From Terrabacter tumescens (GTDB taxonomy: Bacteria; Actinomycetota; Actinomycetes; Actinomycetales; Dermatophilaceae): a stretch of DNA of 64,000 nt. The notes under the pieces are model-generated. The model was not told the DNA's origin. It searched no databases and was given only the letters and a program-made list of their open reading frames with translations. The position numbers and the translations under genes are program-made. The first letter of the stretch is position 1, and each line of letters opens with the position of its first letter. The stretch lies in NCBI RefSeq assembly GCF_014646815.1, contig NZ_BMNZ01000005.1, forward strand, positions 242,394 through 306,393, written 5' to 3'. Shown here piece after piece: positions 47,527-54,421 of the stretch.

Positions 47527-48776
47527 CCACCACCGACCAGCGCCCCACCGACCGCGAGCGCGGCCCCGTCGCGGAGACCGCGCTCGCCGACACCACCGAC
47601 ACGGCGGCAGGCGGGCGCGCCTGGGCCGTCGTGGCGGCGCGCGAGATCGTCGTGCGCTTGACGAACCGCGCGTTCCTCGTCTCGACCCTCATCACGCTCG
47701 TCTTCATCGCCGGTTTCGGTGCCTTCTCGGTGTGGGAGGGCAGCAGGACGACGACCTACACCGTGGCCGTGGCCGGCTCCGACGGCCGTGCACTCGTCGA
47801 GCGAGCCGCGGTGTCGGCGCGGCAGGACGACGACAAGGTGTCGGTCGTCGCGACGTCCGTGTCGGGCGAGCCCGCGGCGCGCACCCTTGTCGACGAGGGG
47901 TCGGCCGACGCCTGGCTGCACGAGACGGGCACCGGTTGGACGCTGACGTCGGCCGACGACGCCGACCTCGCCCTGCGCACCGCCGTCGAGAGCGCGTTGC
48001 GGAGCACTGCCCTCGAACGCAACGCCGCTGCGGCCGGCACGACCGTCCAGGCCCTCGAGCAGGGCACGACGCTGACGACGACCCGCTTCGACGGCCAGGT
48101 CGGCAACAGCGGCTTCGTCAAGGGGGCGACGTTCGCCTTCGCGCTGCTCTTCTTCATGGCGGCGATGATGTTCGGCCAGCAGATCTCGGCGAGCGTCGTG
48201 GAGGAGAAGCAGTCCCGCCTCGTCGAGATCCTGGCGACCGCGATCCCCTTGCGGCAGCTGCTCGCCGGCAAGATCCTCGGCAACTCGGTCATCGCGCTGG
48301 GCCAGGTGGTGCTCTTCGCCGCCGTCGGCCTCGTGGCCGTGTCGTTCACCGACCTCTCGACGCTGCTGCCGAGCCTGTCGACGGCCGTCGTGTGGTTCGT
48401 GCTCTTCTTCGCGGTCGGCTTCTTCGCCCTCGCGTGCCTCTACGCCGTCGCCGGCGCCCTCGCGTCGCGCACCGAGGACCTTCAGTCGACGACGGCACCG
48501 ATGACGACGATCCTCATGGCCGTCTACGTCGCGAGCTTCGGACTGTCGGGCAAGGCGCTCGAGGTGGCCTCCTTCGTGCCGATCGCGTCGGTCGTGTCGA
48601 TGCCGGGGCGCCTGCTCGCCGGTGACGCGGCCTGGTGGGAGCCGGTGGTCGCCCTCCTGCTCATGGCCGGCTTCTCGGCGGTGACCGTCGTCGTCGGCGA
48701 GCGGATCTACCGTCGCTCGCTCATGCAGTCCGGGGGCCGCGTCTCGTGGAAGCAGGCGCTCACGGCTCAGGACTGA
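47523..48776 (+). CDS. ABC-2 family transporter permease (NatB-like)
   Basis: A 417-residue membrane protein. One helix near the N-terminus (~50-70), a ~130-residue extracytoplasmic domain (YTVAVAGSDGRALVE onward), then five helices (~205-400) with the ABC-2/NatB marker EEKQSRLVEILATAIP. With the ATPase it forms an exporter; NatAB extrudes sodium and relatives export drugs or peptides. Substrate unknown. Its last 17 nt overlap the convergent MFS gene. Confidence 0.9.
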   Translation: MTTTDQRPTDRERGPVAETALADTTDTAAGGRAWAVVAAREIVVRLTNRAFLVSTLITLVFIAGFGAFSVWEGSRTTTYTVAVAGSDGRALVERAAVSARQDDDKVSVVATSVSGEPAARTLVDEGSADAWLHETGTGWTLTSADDADLALRTAVESALRSTALERNAAAAGTTVQALEQGTTLTTTRFDGQVGNSGFVKGATFAFALLFFMAAMMFGQQISASVVEEKQSRLVEILATAIPLRQLLAGKILGNSVIALGQVVLFAAVGLVAVSFTDLSTLLPSLSTAVVWFVLFFAVGFFALACLYAVAGALASRTEDLQSTTAPMTTILMAVYVASFGLSGKALEVASFVPIASVVSMPGRLLAGDAAWWEPVVALLLMAGFSAVTVVVGERIYRRSLMQSGGRVSWKQALTAQD

Positions 48777-50037
48777 CCGGGGCGGCTGCTCCTCCCCGCT
48801 GGTGCTCGCCCTCGCCCGTCACGTGACGGTAGGGCGAGCACCAGAGGATGAGCGCCGACGCGGCGAGCCCGACGACGGCCGCCGCGATGGCGGTTCGATT
48901 GCCCCACGTGGCCGCCACCCAGCCGCCGAGTGGGGCGGCCACCGCGATGGACCCCCAGTTGAACGAGCGGATCGTGGCGTTCATCCGTCCTCGCAGCCGG
49001 TCGGGTGTCACGAGGTTGCGATAGCTCATCTCGAGCGGCCCGCGGACGCCCATCGCGAGTCCGAAGAGCGCGTTGGCGACCAGTGGCCAGAGGAGCGCTG
49101 ACGGCCCTGGCTGCGCGAGCAGCAGGAGGGCGTATGCCGTGGGGCTCAGCCACTCGGTCGTCGTGACCACCCGCCCGGTCCCGAAGCGCCGTCCGAGGCG
49201 CGGGGCGAGCCCGGCGCCGACGACACCGGTGACCCCGGTCGCGGCGAGGACGAGCCCGACCGCGATCGGGCCCAGCCGCAGCTCGGTCGTCGCGAAGTAG
49301 ACGAGCACCGTCGTCACCATGGCGTTGGCGAAGAACCACAGGTGCAGGGCGATCGCGTACGGCCCGAGGGTGACGTGGCGATAGACCCACGCCGCTCCCT
49401 CGCGCAGCTCGCTCCGGAGGTGCCGCTCGGCGGACGGCTCCGGCCTCGCCTCCTCGACACGGAGCGTCGCGAGCACGACGGCCGACACGGCATACGACAT
49501 CGCGTCGACGAGGATGGCCACGGGCGCGGAGAGCAGTCGCACGAGAGTCCCACCGACGAGCGGCCCGAGGGACTGCGTCGCCGAATACGTCTGTGCCAGG
49601 CGGGCATTCGCCGATGCGAGTCCGGGCGCTGGGACGATCGTCGGCAGCAGTGACAGGTGGGCAGCGGTGAAGAACATCGACGCCGAGCCGGTTGCGAAGA
49701 CGAGGACGGCGAGGATCGGCACCGTCAGGTGGCCGGTCAGCGCGAGCACTCCCACCGCCCCGAGCAGCACGGCGCACAGCACGTCGACCACGACGAGGAG
49801 CGGACGCCGGCGCATCCGGTCGACGACGACGCCGGCGAGCAGGCCGAAGAGCAGGTAGGGCAGCCACTGCGCGGACCGCACGATCCCGAGCGCCGTCTGG
49901 TCGGCGTGCAGCGTCTCGATGAGGAGCAGCTGCAGGGCCAGCGTCGAGACGAAGGTCCCGAGGTTCGAGACGGCGTCGGCGATCCAGAAACGGACGAAAG
50001 CCCCGGACCGGGACGTATCGACCGTCGATCGGGACAC
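48760..50037 (-). CDS. MFS transporter
   Basis: A 425-residue major facilitator with about 12 hydrophobic helices. The motif-A-like loop DRMRRRPLLVVVD follows helix 2. It has the layout of the enterobactin-exporter-like/MFS_3 group (FVRFWIADAVSNLGTFVSTLALQ start; RGPLEMSYRNLVTPDRLRGRMNAT in the central loop). Efflux of a small molecule is likely. GTG start with a near-perfect AAGGAGG 8 nt upstream, the strongest ribosome site in the window. The 3' end overlaps the convergent permease gene by 17 nt. Confidence 0.9.
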   Translation of the reverse strand: MSRSTVDTSRSGAFVRFWIADAVSNLGTFVSTLALQLLLIETLHADQTALGIVRSAQWLPYLLFGLLAGVVVDRMRRRPLLVVVDVLCAVLLGAVGVLALTGHLTVPILAVLVFATGSASMFFTAAHLSLLPTIVPAPGLASANARLAQTYSATQSLGPLVGGTLVRLLSAPVAILVDAMSYAVSAVVLATLRVEEARPEPSAERHLRSELREGAAWVYRHVTLGPYAIALHLWFFANAMVTTVLVYFATTELRLGPIAVGLVLAATGVTGVVGAGLAPRLGRRFGTGRVVTTTEWLSPTAYALLLLAQPGPSALLWPLVANALFGLAMGVRGPLEMSYRNLVTPDRLRGRMNATIRSFNWGSIAVAAPLGGWVAATWGNRTAIAAAVVGLAASALILWCSPYRHVTGEGEHQRGGAAAPVSPEP

Positions 50038-50262: not shown

Positions 50263-51435
50263 TCAGGCCGGCAGCGGCGTGCGCGTGCCGGTCGGCACGG
50301 GCTGGGGCGGCGGCGGTCCCACGTAGCGCGCGGCGGGCCGGATGATCTTCGGGTCGCGGCTCTGCTCCAGGACGTTCGCCGTCCAGCCGACGACCCGCGC
50401 GACGCAGAACGTCGGCGTGAACATCGACGGGTCGAGCCCTGCCAGCTTCATGACGACGCCGGCGTAGAACTCGACGTTGGCGTGCAGCTCGCGACCGGGC
50501 TTGAGGTCGGCCAGCGCCTGCTCGATGGCGTCCTCCACCCCGACGGCGAGGTCGACGAGCGGGTCGTCCCAGCCGCGGGCGACCGTCTTGAGCATCTCCG
50601 AGCGCGGGTCGCGGGTGCGGTAGACGGCGTGGCCGAACCCCATGATCCGGGCGCCCGACGCGATGCGCTCGCGCACCCAGCCGTCGGCCCGGTCCAGCGT
50701 GCCGATCTCGTCGAGCGCCTCGAGCGCGCGGCTCGGGGCGCCTCCGTGCAGCGGCCCGGAGAACGAGCCGATGGCCCCGACGAGGCAGGCCGCGAGGTCG
50801 GCGCCGGTGCTCGCGATGACCCGGGCCGTGAAGGTCGAGGCGTTGAAGCCGTGGTCCATCGTCGCGACGAGGTACTGCTCGACGGCCCGGGCGTCGCCCG
50901 CGGCGGGCAGCCGTCCGGTCACCATGCGCAGGTAGTCCTCGGCGTGGCCGAGGCTCGGGTCCGCGGGGATGGGCTCGAGGCCCTGGTGCAGCCGGTGGGC
51001 CGCAGCCAGGATCGTCGGCGTGATCGCGACCGAGGCCATCGCGGCGGCGAGCTTCTCGTCCTCGTCGCAGTCGTAGAGGGGCCGCAGGCCGGCGATGCCG
51101 CCCCACGCCGACAGTGCCGTGCGCAGCACCTGGAGCGAGTCGGTCGTCGTCGCGCAGATGGCCGGCAGCAGGTCGGCTAGCGCGGCCGGAAGGACGCGCA
51201 GCCGGCCGATCTCGGCCGTGAACGTCGCGAGCTCGTCGGCGTCCGGGAGGTGGCCGCGCTCGAGCAGGTGCCAGGCCTGCTCGAAGCCGACCTTCTCGGC
51301 CAGCTCGACGGCGGAGTACTGCCGGTAGTGGAAGAAGCCCTCGTCGCCGCGGACGTCGCCGAGCTCGGTGTCGGTGACGACGACCTTGGCCAGGCCCTTC
51401 GGGACGGTGATGAAACCGGTGGGGTTGGTGGACAT
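50263..51435 (-). CDS. citA: Citrate synthase-family protein (CitA-like)
   Basis: A 390-residue enzyme condensing acetyl-CoA with oxaloacetate. Substrate and catalytic positions: DHGFNAST (His195), GPLHGGAP (His230), GFGHAVY (His269) and NVEFYAG (Glu322, where the classic enzyme has the catalytic Asp). An Arg in TRDPR follows. The Glu for Asp change is shared with some actinobacterial second citrate synthases, which may be slower or use other keto acids. RBS GAGGAG before ATG. Divergent from an HTH-citrate synthase fusion, with shared operator dyads between them. Confidence 0.9.
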   Translation of the reverse strand: MSTNPTGFITVPKGLAKVVVTDTELGDVRGDEGFFHYRQYSAVELAEKVGFEQAWHLLERGHLPDADELATFTAEIGRLRVLPAALADLLPAICATTTDSLQVLRTALSAWGGIAGLRPLYDCDEDEKLAAAMASVAITPTILAAAHRLHQGLEPIPADPSLGHAEDYLRMVTGRLPAAGDARAVEQYLVATMDHGFNASTFTARVIASTGADLAACLVGAIGSFSGPLHGGAPSRALEALDEIGTLDRADGWVRERIASGARIMGFGHAVYRTRDPRSEMLKTVARGWDDPLVDLAVGVEDAIEQALADLKPGRELHANVEFYAGVVMKLAGLDPSMFTPTFCVARVVGWTANVLEQSRDPKIIRPAARYVGPPPPQPVPTGTRTPLPA

Positions 51436-51535
51436 GGGGTGCTCCTCTCGGGTTCACTCGTCACTCTCAGCGATGTTGATCAACACCGTCAATGTTGATC
51501 GCGTCAACTGTTGACCCGATCAACCCGGAGGCGAC
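51436..51535. promoter_or_regulatory. Divergent promoter/operator of the citrate synthase pair, three GTTGA/TCAAC dyads
   Basis: The 100-bp spacer contains the 12-bp perfect palindrome TGTTGATCAACA (51474-51485), then GTTGA-N5-TCAAC (51494-51508) and GTTGA-N5-TCAAC (51510-51524), all with the same half-sites. Centres are 22 and 16 bp apart, mostly one to two helical turns, so a dimer could bind two or three sites cooperatively. It is far more AT-rich than its surroundings. This is a strong candidate binding site for the helix-turn-helix domain encoded alongside. Confidence 0.85.
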
Positions 51536-52699
51536 ATGGCGATGACGTCAGGCACGTGGATCACGACGACGGAGGCTGCCCAGCGGCTCGGCGTCAAGCG
51601 CGCGACCCTCTACGCCTACGTCAGCCGTGGGCTGCTCCGCAGCGAGCGCCGACCCGGCCAGCAGGAGAGCCTCTTCGACCGCGCCCAGATCGACGCCATG
51701 GCTTCGGCCACCCGGCCGCCGGGAGGTCCGCAGCCGGTCCTGCGCTTCCGCAGCATCGCGACGTCGGTGAGCAGCCAGACCGAGGGCGACCTGCTCTATC
51801 GCGGGCACCCCCTGTCGGAGGTCGTGTCCCTCGGGTCGCTCGAGGAGGCGGCTGCCATCGTGCTGGGATCCGCTGTGGCGCAGGGAGTTCCGGGCCCGGA
51901 CCCCTCGGTGCCGGCCGGTGTCGACCTCTCGAGCCTGCCGCTCGAGCGCCGGATGCCGGTCGCGGTGCAGCTGCTCGCCGCGGCCGACCCGTTCGCGTCC
52001 GACACCGACCCCGCACGGGTCAGGGCCGCGGCCGTGCCGACGCTGCGCGCTGCGTTGACGCTGCTCGCCGGGGGTCAGGGCCAGTCGGACCTGGCGGCGC
52101 TCGCGCTGGCGGCACTGGGCGGGTCACCCTCGGCACGCGCCGACGTCGCGGCGCTCCGGGTCCTGCTCGTCGCCCTCCTCGACCACGGCCTGACGGCCTC
52201 GACGGTGGCGGCCCGCGTCACCGCCTCGACGCGCGCGGGACTCCACGACTGCCTCTGCGCCGCGTATGCCGCGATGGCCGGGCCGCTCCACGGTGCGGCG
52301 CCGGTCGCCGCCCACGCCCTGCTCACGGACGGCGTCGACCCGGCTGTCCTCGTCGCGCGCTCGCTGCGCGAGCGTGGTGCGGTGGCCGGCTTCGGCCACT
52401 TCCTCTACCCCGACGGCGACCCGCGCGCCGACGTCGTCCTCGAAGCCCTGTGGCGCCGACGCGGCACCACCCGGCTGCGGCGCCGCGTCGAGAGCCTCGC
52501 CGCTCTCGTCGCCGAGCGCACCGGCGCGCTGCCCAACATCGACCTCGCGAGCGCGGCCGTGCTGCACGCGTTGGGCCTGCCTGCCGAGTCCGGCGAGGTC
52601 GTCTTCCAGGTGGCCCGCACCGTCGGCGTCGCCGCGCACGTCGCGGAGGAGTATGCCGAGGAGCCGCTGCGCTGGCGGGGCCGCGACCCGCAGGGCTGA
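51536..52699 (+). CDS. Helix-turn-helix/citrate synthase-domain fusion protein
   Basis: A 387-residue protein. Residues ~8-60 are a MerR/excisionase-type helix-turn-helix (WITTTEAAQRLGVKRATLYAYVSRGLL); ~68-380 is a citrate synthase fold. His217 (LDHGLTAST), His252 (GPLHGAAP), His288 (GFGHFLY) and Asp336 (NIDLASA) line up with substrate and catalytic residues, so it may still bind oxaloacetate or acyl-CoA, or be active. The fusion plus the operator-rich spacer suggests a metabolite-sensing regulator of citA and itself (inference). GGAGG is 6 nt before the ATG. Similar pairs are known in Streptomyces, but I know of no proven role. Confidence 0.88.
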   Translation: MAMTSGTWITTTEAAQRLGVKRATLYAYVSRGLLRSERRPGQQESLFDRAQIDAMASATRPPGGPQPVLRFRSIATSVSSQTEGDLLYRGHPLSEVVSLGSLEEAAAIVLGSAVAQGVPGPDPSVPAGVDLSSLPLERRMPVAVQLLAAADPFASDTDPARVRAAAVPTLRAALTLLAGGQGQSDLAALALAALGGSPSARADVAALRVLLVALLDHGLTASTVAARVTASTRAGLHDCLCAAYAAMAGPLHGAAPVAAHALLTDGVDPAVLVARSLRERGAVAGFGHFLYPDGDPRADVVLEALWRRRGTTRLRRRVESLAALVAERTGALPNIDLASAAVLHALGLPAESGEVVFQVARTVGVAAHVAEEYAEEPLRWRGRDPQG

Positions 52700-52732: not shown

Positions 52733-53347
52733 CTAGACGTGCTGGTCGAACACGTGCCGACGCACCCACGCGTGCATCGCCACCGCCGCGGCCGCTCCGG
52801 CGTTGATCGAGCGGGTCGAGCCGAACTGCTCGATGTGCAGCACGGCAGCGCACTCGGCGCGCATCGGCTCCGAGAGGCCCGGCCCCTCCTGCCCGAAGAC
52901 GAGGACGCACCGGCGCGGCAGGTCGAAGGTCTCGAGCGGCACCGAGCCGGGCAGGTTGTCGATGCCGATGACGACCAGTCCCTCGGCAGCCGCCCAGGCC
53001 GCGAGCGCCGCGGCGTCCGGGTGGTGGTGCTCGTGCTGGTAGCGGTCGGTGACCATCGCCCCGCGGCGGTTCCACCGGCGCCTGCCGACGATGTGGAAGG
53101 CCTGCGCGCCCATGGCGTTGGCCGTGCGGATGACCGAGCCGATGTTGAAGTCGTGGCCCCAGTTCTCGACGGCGACGTGGAAGTCGTGCCGCCGGGTGTC
53201 GAGGTCGGCGACGATCGCGTCGTGCCGCCAGTAGCGGTACGCGTCGACGACGTTGCGCCGGTCACCGTGCTCGAGCAGCTCGGGGTCCCAGTGGTCGCCG
53301 TCGGGCCAGGGGCCCGGCCACGGTCCGACGCCCACCTCTGGTTCCAC
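52733..53347 (-). CDS. TrmH/SpoU-family RNA 2'-O-methyltransferase
   Basis: A ~204-residue SPOUT enzyme. Motif 1 NWGHDFNIGSVIRTANAMGA, motif 2 VFGQEGPGLSEPM and motif 3 LHIEQFGSTRSINAGAAAAVAMHAW form the trefoil knot that binds S-adenosylmethionine; the Ser-x-Asn in motif 3 is typical. Target (tRNA or rRNA ribose) unknown. The GTG at 53347 gives a family-like N-terminus; the longer frame upstream reads as non-coding Pro/Arg-rich sequence. Confidence 0.88.
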   Translation of the reverse strand: MEPEVGVGPWPGPWPDGDHWDPELLEHGDRRNVVDAYRYWRHDAIVADLDTRRHDFHVAVENWGHDFNIGSVIRTANAMGAQAFHIVGRRRWNRRGAMVTDRYQHEHHHPDAAALAAWAAAEGLVVIGIDNLPGSVPLETFDLPRRCVLVFGQEGPGLSEPMRAECAAVLHIEQFGSTRSINAGAAAAVAMHAWVRRHVFDQHV

Positions 53348-53695
53348 GCGCCGAAGTCTACGGAGGCGAGGACCCGAGGCGAGGACAGGTGGACCGCGGG
53401 AGGACCAGGAGGAGGACGGCACGTCCGCCGTCGCGCCCGCCGGAGCGGGGGCGACCCCGAGGTCCCGGCGCGTCGCCGGCCTCCTCCTGCGCTCCCTGAG
53501 CTCATGGTGGCCCGGCCCGGCCCACGGACGGAAGGGACGCCCCCACGATCGATACGTCTTCGAGACCTGCGCTGGGAAGTGGCTGGGAGGCCGGTGGGGA
53601 GGCGCTGCGGACCCGCCGGGGAGCCGCTGGACACCCACAGCCCACGGACAGCGAGGATTCAGGGGTTCCCGGGCACACGGCATACCCTGTGACCC
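53348..53695. other. Gene-free spacer before the DedA gene
   Basis: About 350 nt of very GC-rich sequence between the divergent TrmH-type and DedA genes. I see no gene, RNA or strong hairpin. The only notable element is one octamer copy (CGGCATAC, 53678-53685), centred 14 nt before the DedA start where a -10 element might lie. Confidence 0.5.
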
Positions 53696-54421
53696 ATGCA
53701 CCTACTCGCCGCCCTGCCGGCCGTCGCTCCGGCCCTCGGCCCGAAGTGGATGGACCCCACCTACCTGCTGGAGCAGTACCAGGGGGCGTTCTTCGTCATC
53801 GCCCTGGTCATCGTCTTCGTCGAGTGCGGTCTGCTCTTCCCGATCCTGCCCGGCGACTCGCTGCTCTTCGCGGTCGGCCTCTTCATCGCCACGGGCCAGA
53901 TCGACCTCAACCTCGGGCTCGCCATGGCGGCGCTGACGCTCGCGGCCTTCCTCGGCAACGTCGTCGGCTACGAGATCGGCCGGGCGGTGGGCAAGCCGCT
54001 CTACAAGCGGCAGGGGCGGTTCATCAACACCGCCAACTTCGACAAGACCAACGCGTTCTTCGACAAGTACGGCAACCGCGCGCTCGTGCTCGGCCGCTTC
54101 GTGCCGATCGTGCGCACCTTCATCACCGTCGTGGCCGGCATCGGCCGCATGCACCGCCAGCGCTTCTTCGGCTGGAGCGCCGTGGGCGCCGTGGCGTGGG
54201 TCGTCGGCGTCACCCTGCTCGGCTACTTCCTCGGCCAGGCGTTCCCCGGCCTGACGAAGAACATCGAGTACGCCATCCTCCTCGTCGTGCTCGTCTCCCT
54301 CCTGCCGATGGTCTACGAGTTCGTCAAGCACCGTCGCGAGGCCAAGGCGATCGCCGCCGAGACCGCCGACGCCGTGGGCGACATCGCCGAGAACGCGACG
54401 GGCACCGACCGCCGCTCCTGA
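53696..54421 (+). CDS. DedA-family (VTT domain) membrane protein
   Basis: A 241-residue integral membrane protein with a VTT domain: the conserved ECGLLFPILPGDSLLFAVG, NVVGYEIGRAVG and RFVPIVRTFITVVAGIGRMHRQRF are DedA hallmarks, with the acidic and Arg residues thought to carry proton coupling. Members flip undecaprenyl phosphate or phospholipids and maintain envelope homeostasis. The C-terminus is a charged cytoplasmic tail (~205-241). Confidence 0.92.
   Translation: MHLLAALPAVAPALGPKWMDPTYLLEQYQGAFFVIALVIVFVECGLLFPILPGDSLLFAVGLFIATGQIDLNLGLAMAALTLAAFLGNVVGYEIGRAVGKPLYKRQGRFINTANFDKTNAFFDKYGNRALVLGRFVPIVRTFITVVAGIGRMHRQRFFGWSAVGAVAWVVGVTLLGYFLGQAFPGLTKNIEYAILLVVLVSLLPMVYEFVKHRREAKAIAAETADAVGDIAENATGTDRRS

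Follow-up and report, generated by a model that had tools for sequence, protein, structure and literature searches.

In Bacillus subtilis the minor citrate synthase gene citA lies divergent from citR, the gene for a LysR-type repressor, and a CitA-type enzyme is thereby controlled from a neighboring gene. Regulators may also derive from enzymes themselves, as in 'trigger enzymes' such as PutA, and regulators of the MerR family act at promoters whose classical form has a spacer of 19-20 bp. Here we describe a locus in Terrabacter tumescens, within a stretch of 64,000 nucleotides (contig NZ_BMNZ01000005.1, positions 242,394 to 306,393; the window, to which all coordinates below refer), in which a citrate synthase gene, citA, stands head to head with a gene for a helix-turn-helix (HTH) domain fused to a citrate synthase fold. 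We consider it probable that this fusion binds an operator over the -35 element of citA, represses citA and senses oxaloacetate, citrate or acyl-coenzyme A (acyl-CoA) through its citrate synthase fold. An earlier note, made from the letters of the window, had proposed that the fusion is an enzyme-derived regulator of the paired citA, and comparison between genomes supports the proposal: the site is conserved, is linked to the promoter of the enzyme and co-occurs with the fusion, including at loci where the genes are tail to tail, relocated or paired with another enzyme, and the residues of the recognition helix and of the putative ligand pocket are conserved as well.

The operator and the predicted citA promoter

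The paired gene (50263..51435, minus strand) is the predicted target and encodes a CitA-type citrate synthase of 390 amino acids (Citrate_synt, 344.3 bits), while the fusion gene (51536..52699, plus strand) encodes the predicted regulator of 387 amino acids. The two reading frames, their strands and the 100-bp spacer between citA and the fusion start (51436-51535) are all as the earlier note had described them, and so are the three GTTGA/TCAAC dyads that it had seen in this spacer: a perfect 12-mer, TGTTGATCAACA (51474..51485), a GTTGA-N5-TCAAC dyad (51494-51508) and a third dyad of the same form, GTTGACCCGATCAAC (51510..51524). We found two further dyads that were not in its list, TCAATGTTGA (51489-51498) and GTCAACTGTTGAC (51503-51515). 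Together they make up an operator array of seven TTGA/TCAA half-sites (51474..51524, without strand), the first bases of which are 51476, 51480, 51489, 51495, 51504, 51511 and 51520. Shuffled spacers hold on average 1.07 half-sites and 0.02 dyads, and none of 5000 shuffles reaches the seven half-sites or the five dyads that are observed. The 12-mer occurs once in the 4.7-Mb genome, with four more places at one mismatch, and the pattern TCAAYNTTGA-N4..7-TCAA has its one match of the genome in this spacer. The shuffles, together with the count in the genome, rule out that the dyads arose by chance.

The predicted -35 of citA (TTGACG, 51487..51492, minus strand) overlaps the conserved core of the array, TCAATGTTGATCGCGTCAA (51489..51507), which contains three half-sites, is conserved in relatives and extends upstream of the -35. 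The predicted -10 (GAGAGT, 51463..51468, minus strand) is 18 bp from the -35, and the 12-mer lies within this spacer. Relatives have a TTGAC(A/G) consensus at the -35 and a weak rACrGT consensus at the same distance from it. In the direction of citA, 84 sites, most of them actinobacterial, give the consensus ATTGATYNRATCAAYATTGACA, the last six bases of which are -35-like and are followed 18 bp on by the weak rACrGT; the TCAA and TTGA columns of this consensus were fixed by anchoring and are uninformative by themselves. We ruled out that the conserved stretch is a mere -35 hexamer, as TCAA and the third half-site are not part of the -35 and persist in Alphaproteobacteria, whereas the TTGAC form does not. 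A likely ribosome-binding site of citA, AGAGGAG (51442..51448, minus strand), was read from the sequence. The operator seems to belong mainly to the citA promoter, whose predicted -35 it contains, and it would be shared by the fusion gene only when the two genes are head to head.

Because the core lies over the predicted -35 and an extra dyad falls in the -35/-10 spacer, a bound protein would hinder RNA polymerase, which favors repression of citA. The same protein and site could instead serve activation, with the ligand-bound fusion switching citA on either through a MerR-like realignment of the promoter or through a class-II-like contact with RNA polymerase. The HTH is indeed MerR-like, the 12-mer of the window is inside the spacer, and the core sits just upstream of and over the -35, a place that is also used by activators. 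The predicted spacer, however, is 18 bp long and not the 19-20 bp of classical MerR promoters, the half-sites cover the -35 itself, and the dyad in the spacer is confined to the close relatives of the window (L006-L010) and absent from Streptomyces spacers. We consider activation unlikely, and on this promoter geometry repression would be about four times as likely as activation.

Conservation and placement of the site

In all counts of conservation given here, related genomes and rows are not independent of one another, which has to be held against the proposed regulation. In a first set of 46 loci, citA is head to head with the fusion in 32, two of which carry 5' remnants of citA (L046 and L052, 29 and 40 codons); L063, which has a broken partner, is not among the 32. 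The spacer contains TCAAYRTTGA in 30 of these 32 loci, and in 29 a third TCAA follows 3-9 bases on. Among the 80 loci of a second, named set, the order is head to head in 76. When both sets were brought together as 96 distinct divergent spacers, TCAAYNTTGA was present in 86 (shuffle mean 0.27, maximum 2) and was accompanied by the third TCAA in 80 (shuffle maximum 1). The 96 spacers leave aside L063, three duplicates and 13 of the 80 named loci, namely nine divergent loci with a truncated, distant or extended partner or a projected spacer under 10 bp, and four without a partner. As for the ten misses, the site or its start is just outside the cut in four (L071, L075, L078, L087), and close variants are present in six (L057, L059, L072, L077, L079, L080).

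The site is also found beyond these sets. The fusion profile matched 20 of 240 alphaproteobacterial genomes, and TCAA-N2-TTGA lies at most 70 bp upstream in 18 of the 19 fusions that have an HTH start (the twentieth locus, L291, has none, and L272 is from the same genome as L115). Bradyrhizobium, Mesorhizobium, Tepidicaulis and two unclassified Rhizobiales have TCAAT(C/A)TTGATT and then TCAAT. A phylum-wide search found the site near the fusion start in 23 of 26 distinct loci, the window included (L224-L228 repeat genomes of L198-L218). Dyads are thus widely conserved upstream of orthologous pairs, where their absence would have spoken against the idea of the earlier note. In L076, L078, L095 and L105, from Acidimicrobiales and other metagenome-assembled genomes, the partner citA seemingly has a longer N-terminal part near the site, and its match starts 380-470 bp from the fusion.

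Loci in which the two genes do not share a spacer indicate to which of them the site belongs. In nine tail-to-tail pairs, the 300 bp upstream of the fusion contain no dyad of either kind (9/9), and TTGA-N5-TCAA is found just 5' of citA in seven, with one mismatch in the eighth (L180). One genome (G262) has an intact citA 20 kb from the fusion and the same 19-mer at both places, L129 has the genes 4 kb apart with a site at each, and in L220 the site is beside citA, 1.1 kb from the fusion. A broken second citA in G027 carries its own copy of the site, and in L058 the adjacent citA and the site are both gone. Among the matches listed for the 296 genomes of the class, an exact site is present at most 400 bp upstream of 31 of 47 close citA matches; this comparison used 48 listed sites, and the genomes left out of it are mainly small and AT-rich. 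We read ten of the 16 citA without an exact site, and TTGA-N6-TCAA is present by citA in each of them. Other misses are the variants of L057 and L059 (G246, G199), the 3' parts of split citA genes (G157, G262) and a contig start (G278), and the miss at L038 (G327) carries TCAACGTTGA. If the fusion controlled its own gene only, citA would be affected passively through the shared spacer, and the one spacer common to both genes in most loci would be explained. The tail-to-tail and separated loci, which have the site at citA and mostly not at the fusion, stand against this, and we regard it as very improbable.

The partner enzyme itself is not always CitA-type. At two loci, L186 (G065) and L187 (G142), the fusion faces an HMGL-type enzyme across the site. 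The enzyme has 412 amino acids in the first and 409 in the second, and its best model is homocitrate synthase NifV at 248.2 and 233.5 bits, respectively, below the cut-off of 462.9. The HMGL-type enzyme in the same place is 82% identical in L198 (G361) and more distant (30%) in L223 (G421). All four genomes encode one or more further citrate synthases, at 417-476 bits. The partner is GltA-type in L106 and L276, and that of L067 groups with a third type, the 296.8-bit synthase of the window's own genome. As judged from sequence, the condensing enzymes that accompany this single regulator lineage and single kind of site are of at least four kinds. As the site is at citA in the tail-to-tail and relocated loci and remains in the enzyme-swapped ones, it goes with the condensing-enzyme promoter, fitting a regulator of citA.

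Two further observations concern the partner genes. The HMGL-type enzymes that take the place of citA (L186:4002-5240 and L187:3953-5182) could be homocitrate, citrate or related synthases. In addition, citA is split near codons 35-40 in three Streptomyces loci (L046, L052, L135) and in the L258-L261 regions of G262 and G157. The first 29-40 codons have remained next to the fusion, and the remainder of the gene is found at a distance of about 115 kb in G262 and 164 kb in G157. In G262, ParA-like and transposase-like open reading frames were read near the two split ends, with the intact second citA and the site belonging to it in between. The split genes suggest an insertion or rearrangement at citA.

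With regard to specificity, 42 of the 47 exact sites in the 46 fusion-bearing genomes lie, by position, at fusion or citA loci, and the reversed pattern used as a control gave two sites. A large regulon was ruled out, as only five of the 47 are elsewhere (one each in G040, G315 and G279, two in G172). In the stray-site loci that were searched, that of G040 (L151) and one of G172 (L165), no citrate synthase was found.

Several observations weigh against the fusion acting at this site. The bare pattern matches 86 of the 296 genomes of the class, many of which are small and are matched by the reversed pattern too, 17 of 59 searched site loci have neither a fusion nor a citrate synthase, and in 18 named genomes 11 of 26 sites among the matches listed are outside pair loci by position (control 3). 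Since the bare pattern is unspecific, it is the place of the site and not its mere presence that serves as evidence. The fusions of L110, L112 and L121 have no partner and no site, L037 has no partner and no exact TCAAYRTTGA and shows one looser dyad near the fusion, and no common target was found among the neighbors of these four loci. No site was found at either gene of L074, the tail-to-tail L177 shows a trace of it only, and L281 and L219 carry variant sites. In L222, L273 and L285 the site is present and no condensing enzyme was found beside it; from sequence reading, L285 has a divergent methyltransferase-like gene by its alphaproteobacterial fusion and L273 a same-strand response-regulator-like gene.

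A different motif, the DnaA-box-like TTRTCCACA, was seen near the fusion start in eight of ten loci without a TTGA/TCAA site upstream (L013, L014, L015, L016, L018, L019, L021, L058), with one match in 1.10 Mb of other loci. In seven it is within 72 bp upstream, and in L016 it is at +58 of a start that is possibly set too early. The divergent gene in several of these loci reads as Ser/Thr kinase-like.

The fusion protein as a putative sensor

The HTH domain of the fusion comprises residues 8-57 (51557..51706, plus strand), which match HTH_17 (33 bits, cut-off 27) and MerR_1 (26 bits, cut-off 21.6) in Pfam. PF00376 MerR, at 25.7 bits, stays under its cut-off of 28.2, and none of the NCBIfam equivalog or subfamily cut-offs is reached. 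Compared alone with solved structures, the HTH has SoxR as its nearest match, a weak one (E 0.017). The citrate synthase fold extends over residues of about 70-387 (51743..52696, plus strand), with Citrate_synt (PF00285) at 159.9 bits for residues 140-375 (cut-off 27). A predicted model of the protein (mean predicted local distance difference test, pLDDT, 90.7; predicted template modeling score, pTM, 0.83) consists of the HTH, a low-confidence linker (about 60-70) and a full citrate synthase fold. A MerR-style dimerization helix and short effector domain after the HTH were not in the model, in which the linker and then the citrate synthase fold follow. The fold matches are citrate and methylcitrate synthases (Z about 29-34); synthases filled the listing, and the HTH was barely probed by it.

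As the earlier note had claimed, the fusion keeps His252, His288 and Asp336, which in the alignment correspond to the LHG, GFGH and PN(V/I)D motifs of citrate synthases. H217, R297, R361 and R381, which we take from the alignment and from residue numbering to be the counterparts of the oxaloacetate ligands in the enzymes of pig and E. coli, do not vary in either set of aligned fusions (63/63 and 46/46); the catalytic and ligand roles given here to residues of the fusion are presumed from these two enzymes. The same invariance holds for the putative recognition residues of the HTH, Y26, Y28, S30, R31 and G32 (63/63 and 46/46), and T24 is kept in 63/63 and 45/46, with Ser in L010. On its profile match, its predicted fold and its putative catalytic and oxaloacetate-binding residues, the fusion is a member of the citrate synthase family (PF00285).

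Mean identity across the 666 pairs from 37 genomes amounts to 57% in the HTH, 46% in the citrate synthase domain of the fusion and 62% in the partner. The partner is more conserved than the citrate synthase domain of the fusion in 663 of the 666 genome pairs, and the HTH is more conserved than that domain in 649. A citrate synthase domain less conserved than both its partner and its HTH is the pattern expected of a sensor under weaker catalytic constraint. In a tree of 67 citrate synthase domains, 36 fusions fall on one side of one branch (support 100/96).

The fusion might, however, be mainly an enzyme, a citrate or methylcitrate synthase, while a different regulator, MtrA or GlnR for example, binds the site. 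Most fusions retain the catalytic triad, the exceptions being L106, L060 and L062 (H288) and L112 (H252 and D336), and the fusion may be enzymatically active. According to the accessible part of one paper (PMC12323332), MtrA of Streptomyces coelicolor binds the SCO5831-SCO5832 spacer in gel shifts, and in an mtrA mutant both genes are higher at late time points. A review, in the part available, places citA and citA4 of Saccharopolyspora erythraea under negative GlnR control (PMC10704036). The retained triad and the binding of MtrA both count against a regulatory fusion. Yet the MtrA site, in the accessible part of its publication, resembles another stretch, over the predicted -10, and not the core, as judged on related Streptomyces spacers (PMC12323332). 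Moreover, loci with an enzyme gene of a different type still have the site next to the fusion, and both HTH and site are kept between Actinomycetota and Alphaproteobacteria. We regard a mainly enzymatic fusion as improbable.

From these comparisons we infer physical binding of the fusion to the operator, repression rather than activation, the nature of the ligand and a switch by dimer closure. The fusion would be a transcriptional regulator of the one-component kind, with a former citrate synthase as its sensor. Through its MerR-type HTH it would bind the TTGA/TCAA half-sites in the citA promoter, where the core site, TTGAY-N..-RTCAA-YR-TTGAC towards citA, overlaps the predicted -35, and once bound it would most likely repress citA and, at head-to-head loci, its own gene as well. 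It is established for the family that the citrate synthase dimer closes on oxaloacetate, so that a dimer presenting two HTHs would be a natural switch. On binding oxaloacetate and/or acyl-CoA (or citrate), the subunits would close, the spacing of the HTHs would change and repression would be relieved, and citA would be made when its substrates build up. More tentatively, the fusions may form an old cross-phylum regulator family with a substrate-binding, mostly possibly catalytic, citrate synthase sensor, which controls whichever acyl-CoA/2-oxo-acid condensing enzyme adjoins it (CitA-, GltA-, third-type or HMGL-type) and reads the supply of oxaloacetate and acyl-CoA through the domain closure that serves catalysis in the enzyme.

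The genome of the window has four Citrate_synt genes, which score 470.8, 296.8 and, for this pair, 344.3 and 151.8 bits in a genome profile search. The paired citA is an additional, CitA-type synthase, with a higher-scoring citrate synthase gene elsewhere (470.8 versus 344.3 bits). In the paired synthase the catalytic Asp is replaced by Glu (NVEFYAG), which is the case in all 39 of 39 aligned partner synthases and also in the closest solved relative, citrate synthase 1 of B. subtilis (2c6x). The pair is flanked by genes for a SpoU-type RNA methylase (52733-53701, minus strand) and a major facilitator superfamily (MFS) transporter (48760-50037, minus strand), and no connection of these two neighbors to the pair was seen.

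Comparison with described systems

S. coelicolor SCO5831/SCO5832 (citA3/citA4) is, by annotation and by similar Streptomyces loci, a divergent citrate synthase pair like the one described here. Unlike in the regulation proposed here, the two genes were published as MtrA targets, and the accessible part of that paper gives no regulatory role to either protein (PMC12323332). Caulobacter crescentus likewise has neighboring citrate synthase paralogues, citB/citC (CCNA_03757/CCNA_03758), and an E. coli gltA mutant grows with CitB, though not with its neighbor CitC, according to the available part of PMC7083601, where the term 'trigger enzymes' is also used. CitC is perhaps an HTH fusion as well. 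A literature search, with most subscription journals outside its coverage, found no regulatory role for an HTH-citrate synthase fusion and no citrate synthase member among the trigger enzymes.

If the proposed regulation is true, the citrate synthase fold would join the short list of enzyme-derived transcription factors, and the seemingly redundant citrate synthase pair in many Actinomycetota and Alphaproteobacteria would be explained. Some annotated citrate synthases, one of SCO5831/SCO5832 and perhaps Caulobacter citC, would then be regulators. Local control of the entry step of the tricarboxylic acid cycle can be put to a direct test, and a biosensor for oxaloacetate or acyl-CoA could be made from the sensor.

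Like the trigger enzymes, the fusion is a single polypeptide with both an enzyme fold and a DNA-binding domain and is encoded beside genes of its own pathway. With the MerR family it shares the N-terminal MerR-type HTH and a dyad operator near the promoter core; it differs in that a citrate synthase domain replaces the short MerR effector part, that the operator is mainly over and upstream of the -35 and that the predicted spacer is 18 bp. The arrangement is like that of citR-citA in B. subtilis, in that a CitA-type enzyme, with 2c6x as the best solved match of the partner, would be controlled from its divergent neighbor, but the putative regulator joins an HTH to a citrate synthase fold and is not a LysR protein.

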